This document shows, one piece after another, positions 5,423-16,474 of a stretch of 64,000 bases of DNA. A program made the translations under genes and the position numbers. Location of the stretch: positions 1 through 64,000 of the IMG/VR virus record IMGVR_UViG_3300027708_000068. The stretch is one strand, 5' to 3'. Position 1 is the stretch's first letter. Each line of letters opens with the position of its first letter. Source of the DNA: a virus. Under the pieces are notes generated by a model. It was given only the letters and a program-made list of their open reading frames with translations, was not told where the DNA came from and did no database searches.

Positions 5423-5435
5423 CTAACAATGTTAG
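5423..5435. promoter_or_regulatory. Palindromic site 1, CTAACAATGTTAG
   Basis: Exact copy, extended to a 15-bp palindrome by flanking C and G. It lies 32 bases upstream of the -35 box of the 5468 promoter and pairs with site 2 downstream, so the promoter is bracketed. Confidence 0.8.
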
Positions 5436-5467
5436 GTTTTAAATCCGACTTTTAGTTTCCTACAAAC

Positions 5468-5496
5468 TTGTATTTTGTACCCCAATTTGGTAAATT
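5468..5496 (+). promoter_or_regulatory. Early promoter, class A
   Basis: TTGTAT (5468-5473) and TAAATT (5491-5496) are 17 bases apart. The block TTGTATTTTGTACC is shared with promoters at 7071 and 9875. The predicted start is near 5503, giving a 65-base leader that contains palindromic site 2. Confidence 0.55.
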
Positions 5497-5538
5497 AGAA
5501 TCATGCAGTAAGGGATTAGTTAGGTGTCCCGTTCAACC

Positions 5539-5551
5539 CTAACAATGTTAT
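5539..5551. promoter_or_regulatory. Palindromic site 2, one mismatch
   Basis: CTAACAATGTTAT, 43 bases after the -10 box and 17 bases before the ATG at 5568. With site 1 it brackets the promoter at 116-base spacing, an arrangement suited to looping or road-block repression. Confidence 0.75.
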
Positions 5552-5567
5552 ATAAGGTGATTACATC

Positions 5568-6071
5568 ATGAATATCAATCTAGTTGAGTTGCGTCAGAAT
5601 GTAGCAGAAGCAACAGGGCGTCAGTATGGTGCGGTAAAAGAGTACGCTAAGGGTTTGAATCAATCGTTTGATTTTGCTTGGTTCGAAGTTGAGGCACAAG
5701 ACCAATCGGCAGAGGGTAAGGCAGTTAAGGCAGAGAAGTCAGAGTTTTACAAGCCAATGAAGTTAGCTGGTCATTCTAACCCTTCAACAGTATGGGCAAG
5801 AGTTCGGGCAGATGGTTTGGCAGATGCTAAAGCCAATGAGTTGTTCGGTTATGTTGCAGATGTCGAAACCGAAGATAGCGAAACAGAAACAGAGGGTAGC
5901 GGTGCTAGTCATGCTCGTAGCCCAATGCTACGCAACATTGAGGAATTGACTAAGTTGTATAAGTTCAATAAATCTCAGACAGGTTTAGACCCTAAGATTA
6001 TTAAGGCACAGCAGAAAATTTCTGAGGCTTTGATTGAGTTGGGAATCAACCTAACAATGTTAGCTAAGTAA
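5568..6071 (+). CDS. Unknown early protein, first gene of rightward region
   Basis: I do not recognise this 167-residue protein. The N-terminal part (1-85) alternates helix-forming stretches (VELRQNVAEATGRQYGAVKE) with a basic middle. An acidic, Glu/Ser/Thr-rich linker sits near 98-115, and a helical C-terminal part follows (RNIEELTKLYKFNKSQ; KAQQKISEALIELG). It is preceded by AAGGTGA and followed by a strong terminator, so it is monocistronic. Its promoter is bracketed by two palindromic sites and its last codons contain another (LTML). That position makes it the leading candidate for the protein that binds the palindrome and controls itself, which is inference only. Confidence 0.85.
   Translation: MNINLVELRQNVAEATGRQYGAVKEYAKGLNQSFDFAWFEVEAQDQSAEGKAVKAEKSEFYKPMKLAGHSNPSTVWARVRADGLADAKANELFGYVADVETEDSETETEGSGASHARSPMLRNIEELTKLYKFNKSQTGLDPKIIKAQQKISEALIELGINLTMLAK
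6051..6063. promoter_or_regulatory. Palindromic site 3, exact, in gene end
   Basis: CTAACAATGTTAG in frame as Leu-Thr-Met-Leu near the C-terminus of the 167-residue protein, 8 bases from its stop. Confidence 0.75.
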
Positions 6072-6076
6072 ATCAC

Positions 6077-6126
6077 AGGGGGGAGAAATCCCCCTTACTT
6101 TTTCAAACCCCTTCGGGGGTTTTTTC
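6077..6126 (+). terminator. Rho-independent terminator after first early gene
   Basis: Two stem-loops in series. GGGGGG pairs with CCCCC around AGAAAT, then CCCC-TTCG-GGGG is followed by six T residues ending at 6126. The second is a classic UUCG-loop intrinsic terminator. It isolates the first early gene from those downstream. Confidence 0.9.
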
Positions 6127-6163
6127 CTTTTGGACTTTTGGTTTCTTTTGTTATTTTTTATTT

Positions 6164-6187
6164 TTATGATAGTTCTTATGATAGTTC
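6164..6187 (+). repeat. Perfect 12-bp tandem duplication
   Basis: TTATGATAGTTC occurs twice head to tail. Each copy contains an ATG, but the frame they open ends at about 6270 and looks non-coding. It may be a recent slippage event or part of a leader. Confidence 0.6.
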
Positions 6188-15293: not shown

Positions 15294-15303
15294 CTAAGGA
15301 GAA

Positions 15304-15316
15304 CTAACAATGTTAG
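15304..15316. promoter_or_regulatory. Palindromic site 16, exact, over a start codon
   Basis: CTAACAATGTTAG with the ATG of the 62-residue gene at its centre, preceded by AAGGAGAA. Fourth case of a site masking an initiation codon. Confidence 0.8.
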
Positions 15317-15498
15317 CTATTAAAAATATATTTAAAAAAGAATTAGAAAAACCAAAGGGTGAGCTACCTTTAGCGATTGATAAAAACTCAGCTTTTATTT
15401 ATCAGGGCGGTGCTGATGTGCAAAAGGTTTGGCGTAAGTATGGTTGGGTTCCACCATCTGAATATCGAACTGATTATGAATTTGGAAAGAAGGATTGA
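15310..15498 (+). CDS. Small basic early protein, 62 residues
   Basis: MLAIKNIFKKELEKPKGELP, then an aromatic stretch (VWRKYGWVPPSEYRTDYEF). Strong AAGGAG ribosome site overlapping the palindrome. Function unknown; directly followed by the ribbon-helix-helix gene. Confidence 0.75.
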   Translation: MLAIKNIFKKELEKPKGELPLAIDKNSAFIYQGGADVQKVWRKYGWVPPSEYRTDYEFGKKD

Positions 15499-15499
15499 T

Positions 15500-15676
15500 A
15501 TGACGGAAGAAACTAAAAGAAAAGGTCGAGGTAAGGGTAAAACCCCACCTATGCTAAGCACAAGTATCCGCTTATCAACAGACATAGTAGAGTATTTCAA
15601 AGGGAGGTATCCGCATAAGTGGCAGTCAGAAATGCGGAAGGTGTTAATTAATTTTATTGGGAAGGAGAATAAATGA
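15500..15676 (+). CDS. Ribbon-helix-helix protein, BrnA antitoxin-like
   Basis: 58 residues. A basic tail (KRKGRGKGK) is followed by STSIRLSTDIVEYFKGR and WQSEMRKVLINFI, which matches the strand-helix-helix pattern of BrnA-type antitoxins (IRL..D....F...G..WQ..M...L). Such proteins bind short palindromes as dimers. No BrnT toxin is encoded beside it, so it may be an orphan antitoxin or a phage regulator; it is one candidate to bind the 13-bp palindrome. The start at 15500 is internal to a longer frame. Confidence 0.75.
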   Translation: MTEETKRKGRGKGKTPPMLSTSIRLSTDIVEYFKGRYPHKWQSEMRKVLINFIGKENK

Positions 15677-15939
15677 GTAATGTAATACAAGGTGCAACTG
15701 GTGCGCAGTATGAGTTATTAGATACCAGTCCGAAGAACACAGATATGGTCAATAGCCCTAGTCATTACAAAGTAGGTGGTATTGAAACGATTGACTTTAT
15801 TGAAGCTAAGAATTTGGGTTATCACTTAGGTAATGCTATAAAATACATTAGCAGAGCAGACCATAAAGGCGCAAGAATTCAAGACCTAGAAAAGGCTAAG
15901 TGGTACTTGGATAGAGAGATTAAAAGACTTAGTGCCTAG
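15673..15939 (+). CDS. DUF3310 (SaV-like) protein
   Basis: 88 residues. The segment SPSHYKVGGIETIDFIEAKN then YHLGNAIKYISRADHKG and DLEKAKWYLDREI is the DUF3310 signature. These proteins are common in phages, sometimes annotated as nucleotide-kinase-like, without a proven function. It overlaps the previous stop by ATGA and is the last gene of the palindrome-rich operon. Confidence 0.88.
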   Translation: MSNVIQGATGAQYELLDTSPKNTDMVNSPSHYKVGGIETIDFIEAKNLGYHLGNAIKYISRADHKGARIQDLEKAKWYLDREIKRLSA

Positions 15940-16131
15940 AGCATTTCGTAAAGACAATAGCTTATAGAAGTCTTGTATATGCGGTAAGCGATTTGTCGTA
16001 GTAGTTGGGGTCTAGGCGCATTGGTATTTTCCCCACTACTCACCTTTCACGAACACGACGAGGGGCGTGCTAATATACTAACCCCTCACCCCACCTAGTA
16101 TTAACCCCCATAAAAAATATCCATAAACTCT
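15940..16131. other. Intergenic region between early operons
   Basis: No credible gene. GAGGGG (16060-16065) and CCCCTC (16082-16087) form a 6-bp stem around a 16-base loop, but no U-run follows. It separates the palindrome-rich operon from the replication block. Confidence 0.6.
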
Positions 16132-16159
16132 TTGACAGAGTAAAGAACTATGCTATACT
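16132..16159 (+). promoter_or_regulatory. Early promoter, class B, with consensus -35
   Basis: TTGACA (16132-16137), 16-base spacer, TATACT (16154-16159) preceded by TGC. It shares GACAGAGTAAAGAA-C-ATG-TATACT with the promoter at 24449. The predicted start of RNA is at or next to the ATG of the VRR-NUC gene (16166). Confidence 0.85.
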
Positions 16160-16165
16160 CATGGC

Positions 16166-16474
16166 ATGGCTAGCACACCCGAAAAAAAAGTAAAAGACAG
16201 TTGCGTTAAGCTCTTAAAGAGCTATGGTGCATACTATTTCTACCCTGTTATGACAGGGTTTGGGCGCTCAGGAATCCCCGACATCATTAGTTGTGTTAGA
16301 GGTAAGTTCCTAGCCATAGAGTGTAAGGCTGGCGACAATAAGACCACCGCACTACAAGAACGAGAACTACAAAAAATAAATGAGGCTGGAGGCGTATCGT
16401 TGGTAATCAATGAGACGAACCTAACAATGTTAGATGAGATACTAAAAGGATTGACGCATGGAACGAAATTCTGA
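16166..16474 (+). CDS. VRR-NUC domain nuclease, possibly leaderless
   Basis: 102 residues forming a single VRR-NUC domain: TPEKKVKDSCVKLLKSYGAY, then SGIPD at 35-39 (D39), AIECKAG at 50-56 (E52, K54) and Q64. These are the PD-(D/E)XK catalytic positions. The family cuts branched DNA and occurs in phage recombination modules. The N-terminus matches family starts, so ATG 16166 is well fixed. The -10 box ends only 6 bases before it and there is no ribosome site, so the mRNA may be leaderless. Palindromic site 17 encodes NLTMLD near the end. Confidence 0.92.
   Translation: MASTPEKKVKDSCVKLLKSYGAYYFYPVMTGFGRSGIPDIISCVRGKFLAIECKAGDNKTTALQERELQKINEAGGVSLVINETNLTMLDEILKGLTHGTKF
16421..16433. promoter_or_regulatory. 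Palindromic site 17, exact, last of the dense cluster
   Basis: CTAACAATGTTAG in the VRR-NUC gene, read as Leu-Thr-Met-Leu. No further copy occurs for 12 kb. Confidence 0.75.

Follow-up and report, generated by a model that had tools for sequence, protein, structure and literature searches.

What protein reads the 13-bp palindrome CTAACAWTGTTAG, which is dispersed through the early region of a viral DNA (positions 1 to 64,000 of IMG/VR record IMGVR_UViG_3300027708_000068), and what would such reading do? A preliminary description of this 64-kb stretch, hereafter the window, had reported 18 copies, 12 exact and six with one mismatch, placed in leaders, on start codons and inside genes and missing from the late genes. 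A motif search finds every copy in place and upholds that distribution: all 18 fall in the rightward-transcribed region at 5.3–29.3 kb (17 at 5.4–16.4 kb and one at 28410), and the leftward late and structural genes of the window hold none at one mismatch or fewer. The larger finding, absent from that description, is a phage family with many different palindromes in which the first early gene co-varies with the site. On sequence evidence, the product of that gene (5568–6071) is the best candidate for the palindrome-binding protein.

Palindromic sites in the window and their conservation

Allowing two mismatches, the search returns 20 matches against a mean of 3.05 and a maximum of 9 in 100 dinucleotide shuffles, and the two 2-mismatch matches (49767 and 57464) are in line with chance. 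Under a first-order Markov model, the Poisson log10 P for the 12 exact copies is about −32, and the remaining 2.6 kb of the 66,615-bp record contains no exact copy. Chance or a codon-use artefact as the source of the palindromes is ruled out by the shuffles, the Markov statistics and conservation in relatives. The central base is always A or T in the window and is C or G in some relatives. Start codons at 7162, 7615, 11410 and 15310 are overlapped by copies; the other copies are intergenic, or intragenic in more than one reading frame, and the spacing inside the early operon is 0.1–1.1 kb. The sites and the elements around them are as follows (G and L numbers denote related genomes and contigs):

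5423–5435, site, exact; 32 bp upstream of the P1 −35; kept in G006
5468–5496, + strand, putative early promoter P1, TTGTAT-17-TAAATT; shared extended promoter element
5539–5551, site, one mismatch; 42 bp past the P1 −10, 16 bp ahead of the first early gene
5568–6071, + strand, first early gene, 167 aa; proposed site-binding protein
6051–6063, site, exact; within the 3′ end of the first early gene
6105–6126, + strand, terminator-like hairpin and T-run, 3′ of the first early gene
6348–6360, site, one mismatch
7071–7099, + strand, putative early promoter P2, TTGTAT-17-TATACT; shared element
7156–7168, site, one mismatch; 56 bp past the P2 −10, on start codon 7162
7609–7621, site, one mismatch; on start codon 7615
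8412–8424, site, exact; intragenic
8921–8933, site, one mismatch; exact in G006 and L005
9400–9412, site, exact; in gene 8949–9833; centre T here, A in G006
9875–9903, + strand, putative early promoter P3, TTGTAT-17-TATAAT; shared element
9951–9963, site, exact; 47 bp past the P3 −10, ahead of the AAA ATPase gene (9988)
10670–10682, site, exact; inside the AAA ATPase gene; near-identical offset in G013, L014 and L015
11404–11416, site, exact; covers start codon 11410 of the VWA/metallopeptidase-like gene
12413–12425, site, exact; inside the VWA-like gene
13317–13329, site, exact
14323–14335, site, exact; in gene 13576–14427
15304–15316, site, exact; on start codon 15310
16421–16433, site, exact; in the VRR-NUC-like gene 16166–16474, shortly ahead of gene 16458
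28410–28422, site, one mismatch; in the primase/helicase gene; kept in G006

Relatives (35) were collected through the VWA/metallopeptidase-like protein (11404–12642). The preliminary description had staked its case on related phages keeping the sites at the same places, and in five close relatives, whose early DNA is 75–83% identical, nearly all alignable window sites are still sites, mostly with 12–13 of 13 bases identical and with a central A/T that flips freely. This retention is far above background and bears out the earlier expectation. The apparent outlier at 28410 is present at the orthologous position in G006, and this site is therefore real. Among single-mismatch copies in 15 genomes with CTAACA sites, none of 35 broken arm pairs is a G-U wobble, indicating that selection in the CTAACA group acts on the double-stranded DNA itself and not on an RNA hairpin. 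The earlier suggestion that the DNA (or RNA) sequence is selected is thereby narrowed to DNA for this group.

Palindromes and first early genes across related phages

A search for over-represented palindromes showed the layout to be general: dozens of related phages bear dispersed palindromes, with at least 15 distinct sequences among them. CTAACA-N-TGTTAG is found in many of them, down to 57% protein identity. The other palindromes are:

GTAACA-N-TGTTAC, in G011
ATAACA-N2-TGTTAT, in L012 and L034
CTAACA-N2-TGTTAG, in L115 and L125
GTAACC-N2-GGTTAC, in G016 and L109
TAAACA-N2-TGTTTA, in L091
AGTGTCA-N3-TGACACT, in G019
ATCGACA-N3-TGTCGAT, in G031
TCTAGTG-N5-CACTAGA, in G032
TCCTAGA-N3-TCTAGGA, in L025 and L031
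TACTGTC-N-GACAGTA, in L093
TTTCGTAC-N-GTACGAAA, in L164
AGGGTTAC-N5-GTAACCCT, in L098
GGGTAC-N2-GTACCC, in L175
GTTCAATTGAAC, in L176
GTTACCT-N4-AGGTAAC, in the cultured Rhizobium phage RHph_TM3_14A (L080)

Site positions can outlast the change in sequence: a site immediately precedes the AAA ATPase gene in G000, G011, G019, G031 and G032. RHph_TM3_14A has 41 sites at up to two mismatches against 0–1 in shuffles. With mismatches allowed, no dispersed palindrome was found in G018, G026, G034, G035, KPP25 or Rollin, and most palindrome-free relatives, KPP25 excepted, gave no dispersed asymmetric 12-mer; because the relatives' contigs are partial, such absences are weak evidence. KPP25 (L081) carries clustered repeats of TGTTACGAAATT / ACGATGTTACGA at locus coordinates ~6390–6820 and 38250–38530, perhaps phage-specific promoters. 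Streptomyces contigs L232, L233 and L234, with a distant terminase, hold repeated TACAACG-N3-CGTTGTA-like palindromes that are perhaps operators of temperate actinophages.

The gene at 5568–6071 opens the rightward operon and runs divergently from the terminase; a putative promoter with flanking sites precedes it and a terminator-like hairpin follows. Its product has no Pfam or PHROG match. An iterated profile recovers members in G006, G013, G016, L015, L085, L086, L091, L096, L107, L109, L112, L115 and L125, among others, and so finds them by sequence alone in phages with different palindromes; a second subfamily includes the G019 first early gene, present in two copies, and its G031 counterpart, with members in L025, L031 and others. 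The family holds the same genomic place in site-bearing genomes. In a set of 33 terminase-anchored contigs, each having 2.4 kb or more of upstream sequence, dispersed palindromes occur in 9 of 9 with a detected member versus 5 of 24 without one, a comparison confounded by relatedness. Sites lie within 300 bp on each side, with none inside, for 18 of 24 first early genes, where random placement gives about 2. Restricting this tally to members identified from sequence alone gives 12 of 14; for the other first early genes, proximity to sites was part of how they were picked. In two genomes (L085:16–2110 and G019:45020–46806) the first early gene is duplicated in tandem with both copies near sites, a possible intermediate in a specificity switch.

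Co-variation was assessed over pairs among 21 genomes, with first-gene alignment z-scores binned by TerL identity. At 70–85% TerL identity, the median z was 17.4 for same-site pairs versus 3.0 for different-site pairs, and at 60–70% it was 15.6 versus 1.1. The adjacent TerS gene differs far less by site (38.0 versus 29.4 and 32.6 versus 17.1 in the same two bins). With TerL and TerS regressed out, the first-gene effect persists (matched by 1 of 5000 label permutations), and the TerS effect vanishes when conditioned on the first gene (1342 of 5000). The first early gene is fast-diverging and co-varies with the site beyond the neighbouring terminase genes. Within the family alignment (A2), a [HY]-x-NP-x3-W-type stretch is kept in nine of ten CTAACA-N-TGTTAG members and also in L115, whereas L125, L109, G016 and L091, which have different sites, have lost it; no stretch of A2 is conserved enough for searching viral contigs. 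That site and protein diverge together between phages points to a private specificity for each lineage.

AlphaFold2 gives the 5568 product a confident all-helical model (mean predicted local distance difference test score, pLDDT, 88) and subfamily II a weaker one (pLDDT 77.6). Both models place a long helix, a turn of 4–5 residues and then a helix with an invariant Trp (W76; W99) near its start, an order compatible with helix-turn-helix. A structure search of the first-gene models against PDB and BFVD returned no match at E ≤ 0.001, so that helix-turn-helix is suggested by helix order only.

A proposed early repressor and its rivals

On balance, we favour the reading that the palindromes are the sites of an autoregulated repressor, encoded at 5568–6071, that silences early transcription at the move from early to late expression. 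All three shared promoter-like elements of the window have a site 42–56 bp past the −10, as do most such elements in relatives; P1 is not picked up by a stricter consensus promoter scan. Observed are the layout and DNA-level conservation of the sites and their co-variation with the first gene; binding, dimerization, silencing and their timing we infer. As the first early gene, 5568–6071 would be the first to yield its product in infection, and the protein, probably a dimer, would accumulate and then bind the sites next to the early promoters, its own included, also occupying those found every 0.1–1.1 kb inside the operon. Bound protein would repress its own gene, making the circuit self-limiting, and early transcription would be silenced by a block to initiation or a road-block to elongation. 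Like the preliminary description, which saw no integrase or repressor, we detected no integrase, ParB or S24-type repressor among the scanned proteins, and the bacterial genome collection contains relatives mostly as 59–63 kb stand-alone or short contigs, not integrated copies; together these results favour a lytic early-to-late role over lysogeny.

The three promoters have TTGTATTTCG in common, exactly or nearly, and the spacer bases that follow the shared element vary between phages (TACCACA here, TGGTGCG in G006 and TAATACA in L005). This variable spacer is possibly a second operator that changes between relatives.

Several observations weigh against the proposed repressor. L112 has CTAACA sites and lacks the H-x-NP stretch, L023, L024, L026 and L027 carry subfamily-II members and no detectable palindrome, and the predicted fold matches nothing solved. 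For several diverged first genes, those of G032, L098 and RHph_TM3_14A among them, no homology to the 5568 family could be detected, and profile–profile comparison with alignment A2 was not significant. These genes were assigned by their location, in part with knowledge of where the sites lie, and it is from location that we infer homology for the most diverged first genes. G011 is without the first-gene region, so its binder goes unseen. The sites of RHph_TM3_14A spread over the whole genome, late genes included, which misfits a purely early shut-off and shows that the target set of such sites can widen beyond early genes.

Two further proteins in the window were considered as binders:

15500–15676, + strand, ribbon-helix-helix/BrnA-antitoxin-like small protein; rival candidate binder
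25993–26238, + strand, Cro/XRE-like helix-turn-helix protein; candidate binder, rejected

Both had been named beside the 5568 product in the preliminary description. Of the three, the 5568 product is now well supported and the ribbon-helix-helix protein is a weaker rival. The Cro-like protein drops out, since G018, G034, G019 and G026, relatives with other or no detected sites, have essentially the same recognition helix (SRMTVYNWF), and the protein is therefore not the specificity determinant. Ribbon-helix-helix proteins are known to bind short palindromes as dimers, so that the 15500–15676 product belongs to a palindrome-binding class, and its family occurs in most TAAC-type genomes (G000, G006, G007, G013, G016, L005, L008, L009, L012, L014 and L015). 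Were it the binder, the first early gene would be merely a target, but it is missing from L020 despite CTAACA sites and a complete interval, and from G011, and phages bearing the other palindromes yielded no homologue. Moreover, its expected DNA-contact strand residue varies (S, I, L, H) among phages with identical sites and is unchanged in G016, whose site differs, which leaves this assignment rather unlikely.

Alternatively, by spreading along the early region or bridging it, the protein could build a nucleoprotein or partition-like array that serves to compact, segregate or protect phage DNA, as KorB/ParB does on RK2; gene control would then be a secondary effect. Spacings of 0.1–1.1 kb, the many intragenic and promoter-distant sites and the ~41 genome-wide sites of RHph_TM3_14A would fit such an array, but no ParA or ParB family match was found among the scanned proteins, the late half of most genomes is avoided and sites are kept shortly downstream of early promoters; we consider it unlikely. 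A further alternative is a repressor of the immunity type, which would silence the non-integrated genome of a temperate or pseudotemperate phage and exclude superinfecting relatives; the specificity switches would then mark immunity groups. Dispersed operators are best known from temperate phages, and many specificities in a constant arrangement recall Cluster A heteroimmunity (PMC6550527). The lack of a detected integrase or partition gene among the scanned proteins and the mostly 59–63 kb stand-alone or short, non-integrated contigs of the relatives make this quite unlikely. Control at the RNA level, by mRNA hairpins at ribosome-binding sites, we hold to be very improbable: although several sites overlap start codons, the stem would be just 5 bp with a loop of 3 bases, many sites are distant from gene starts, and the wobble count rejects this reading for the CTAACA group. 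The rejection is less complete for RHph_TM3_14A, where 13 of 41 sites are centred no more than ~14 bases upstream of an annotated start, overlapping the ribosome-binding site, and 8 of 25 single mismatches are G-U compatible.

Genome context, known systems and meaning

Open reading frames 1–1168 (− strand) and 64781–66595 (− strand) of the record both match one G006 gene, and because one gene is split across the record ends the genome is probably circular or circularly permuted. The window also encodes a 2141-aa protein (29404–35829) whose C-terminal part matches a DarB-like antirestriction PHROG, and a MoxR-like AAA ATPase paired with the VWA/metallopeptidase-like (DUF2201) protein (9988–12645); relatives of the ATPase occur in many 73–78 kb Pseudomonas and Vibrio phages. 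Pelagibacteraceae single-cell assemblies L180 and L185 contain 59–62 kb contigs with related terminase genes, which suggests that the wider phage group infects SAR11 among other hosts.

Dispersed operators are known from several systems. The temperate Streptomyces phages phiC31 and phiBT1, which have an integrase, carry ~16–18 palindromic CIR operators dispersed in the early region and bound by the c repressor. By site layout these resemble the present sites, concentrated as they are in the early region; the difference lies in the lack of an integrase among the scanned proteins here and of integrated relatives. Plasmid RK2 has ~12 dispersed 13-bp palindromic KorB operators (OB) with one degenerate central base, controlled by an autoregulated global repressor that is also a ParB-family partition protein. 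The 13-bp length, dispersal and variable centre are shared, but no ParB family is among the Pfam matches listed for the scanned proteins; one member of alignment A2 has a weak PHROG ParB match (E 0.076). The SPBRE repeats of SPbeta were likewise first seen in silico and later shown to be operators of one repressor, MrpR/YopR, but they lie in promoter regions of a temperate phage and MrpR has a tyrosine-recombinase fold (PMC10516654).

The stoperators of mycobacteriophage L5 had been offered as the nearest parallel. According to PMC9283540 and PMC6550527, Cluster A phages have 20–30 dispersed 13-bp sites read by one phage protein (L5 gp71 or the TipsytheTRex repressor), with many specificities and a proposed block of both initiation and elongation, and the sites are asymmetric, oriented, bound by a monomer and found in temperate phages. 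The 18 copies here are similarly short and run through transcribed regions, with a single shared binder likely, so the sites are stoperator-like. They are nonetheless perfect palindromes whose A/T centre flips, the candidate 5568 protein is unrelated by sequence to the Cluster A repressor, and searches of Pfam, PHROG, PDB and BFVD matched it to no stoperator-type repressor (N-terminal helix-turn-helix plus Stoperator domain). With palindromic dispersed operators known from phiC31, KorB and Corndog, the stoperators are not the nearest parallel.

Among the systems compared, the closest resemblance is to Corndog and its Cluster O mycobacteriophages, which contain 17-bp repeats (TGTTCGG-N3-CCGAACA) as >30 perfect dispersed palindromes, intergenic and intragenic and not tied to promoters, with no integrase or lysogens, no proposed binding protein and no known function (PMC4351075). 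Compared by published description, both have tens of perfect palindromes in and between genes and no integrase; host and genome type differ, and the sites here lie mostly in the early operon and have a co-varying protein. By site symmetry, protein family or integrase, as each applies, the present system falls outside the stoperator, CIR, KorB and SPBRE types, and the candidate binder is apparently a new protein family, in phages without a detected integrase.

More tentatively, and at somewhat less than even likelihood, a hitherto unrecognized, fast-diverging phage DNA-binding family without relatives of known structure, each member with 5–40 private dispersed palindromes, may act as a master switch of early expression across a widespread group of strictly lytic phages and would also explain Corndog-type arrays. 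Earlier palindrome arrays in apparently lytic phages came without a known protein or function (PMC4351075), and a candidate is named here. The cultured RHph_TM3_14A and its near-identical isolates make a testable system. If the proposed repressor is borne out, operon-wide silencing by dispersed operators would not be limited to lysogeny and would be a common early-to-late switch, and the matched sites and proteins would form a natural series in which to follow operator specificity as it shifts in concert at dozens of sites.

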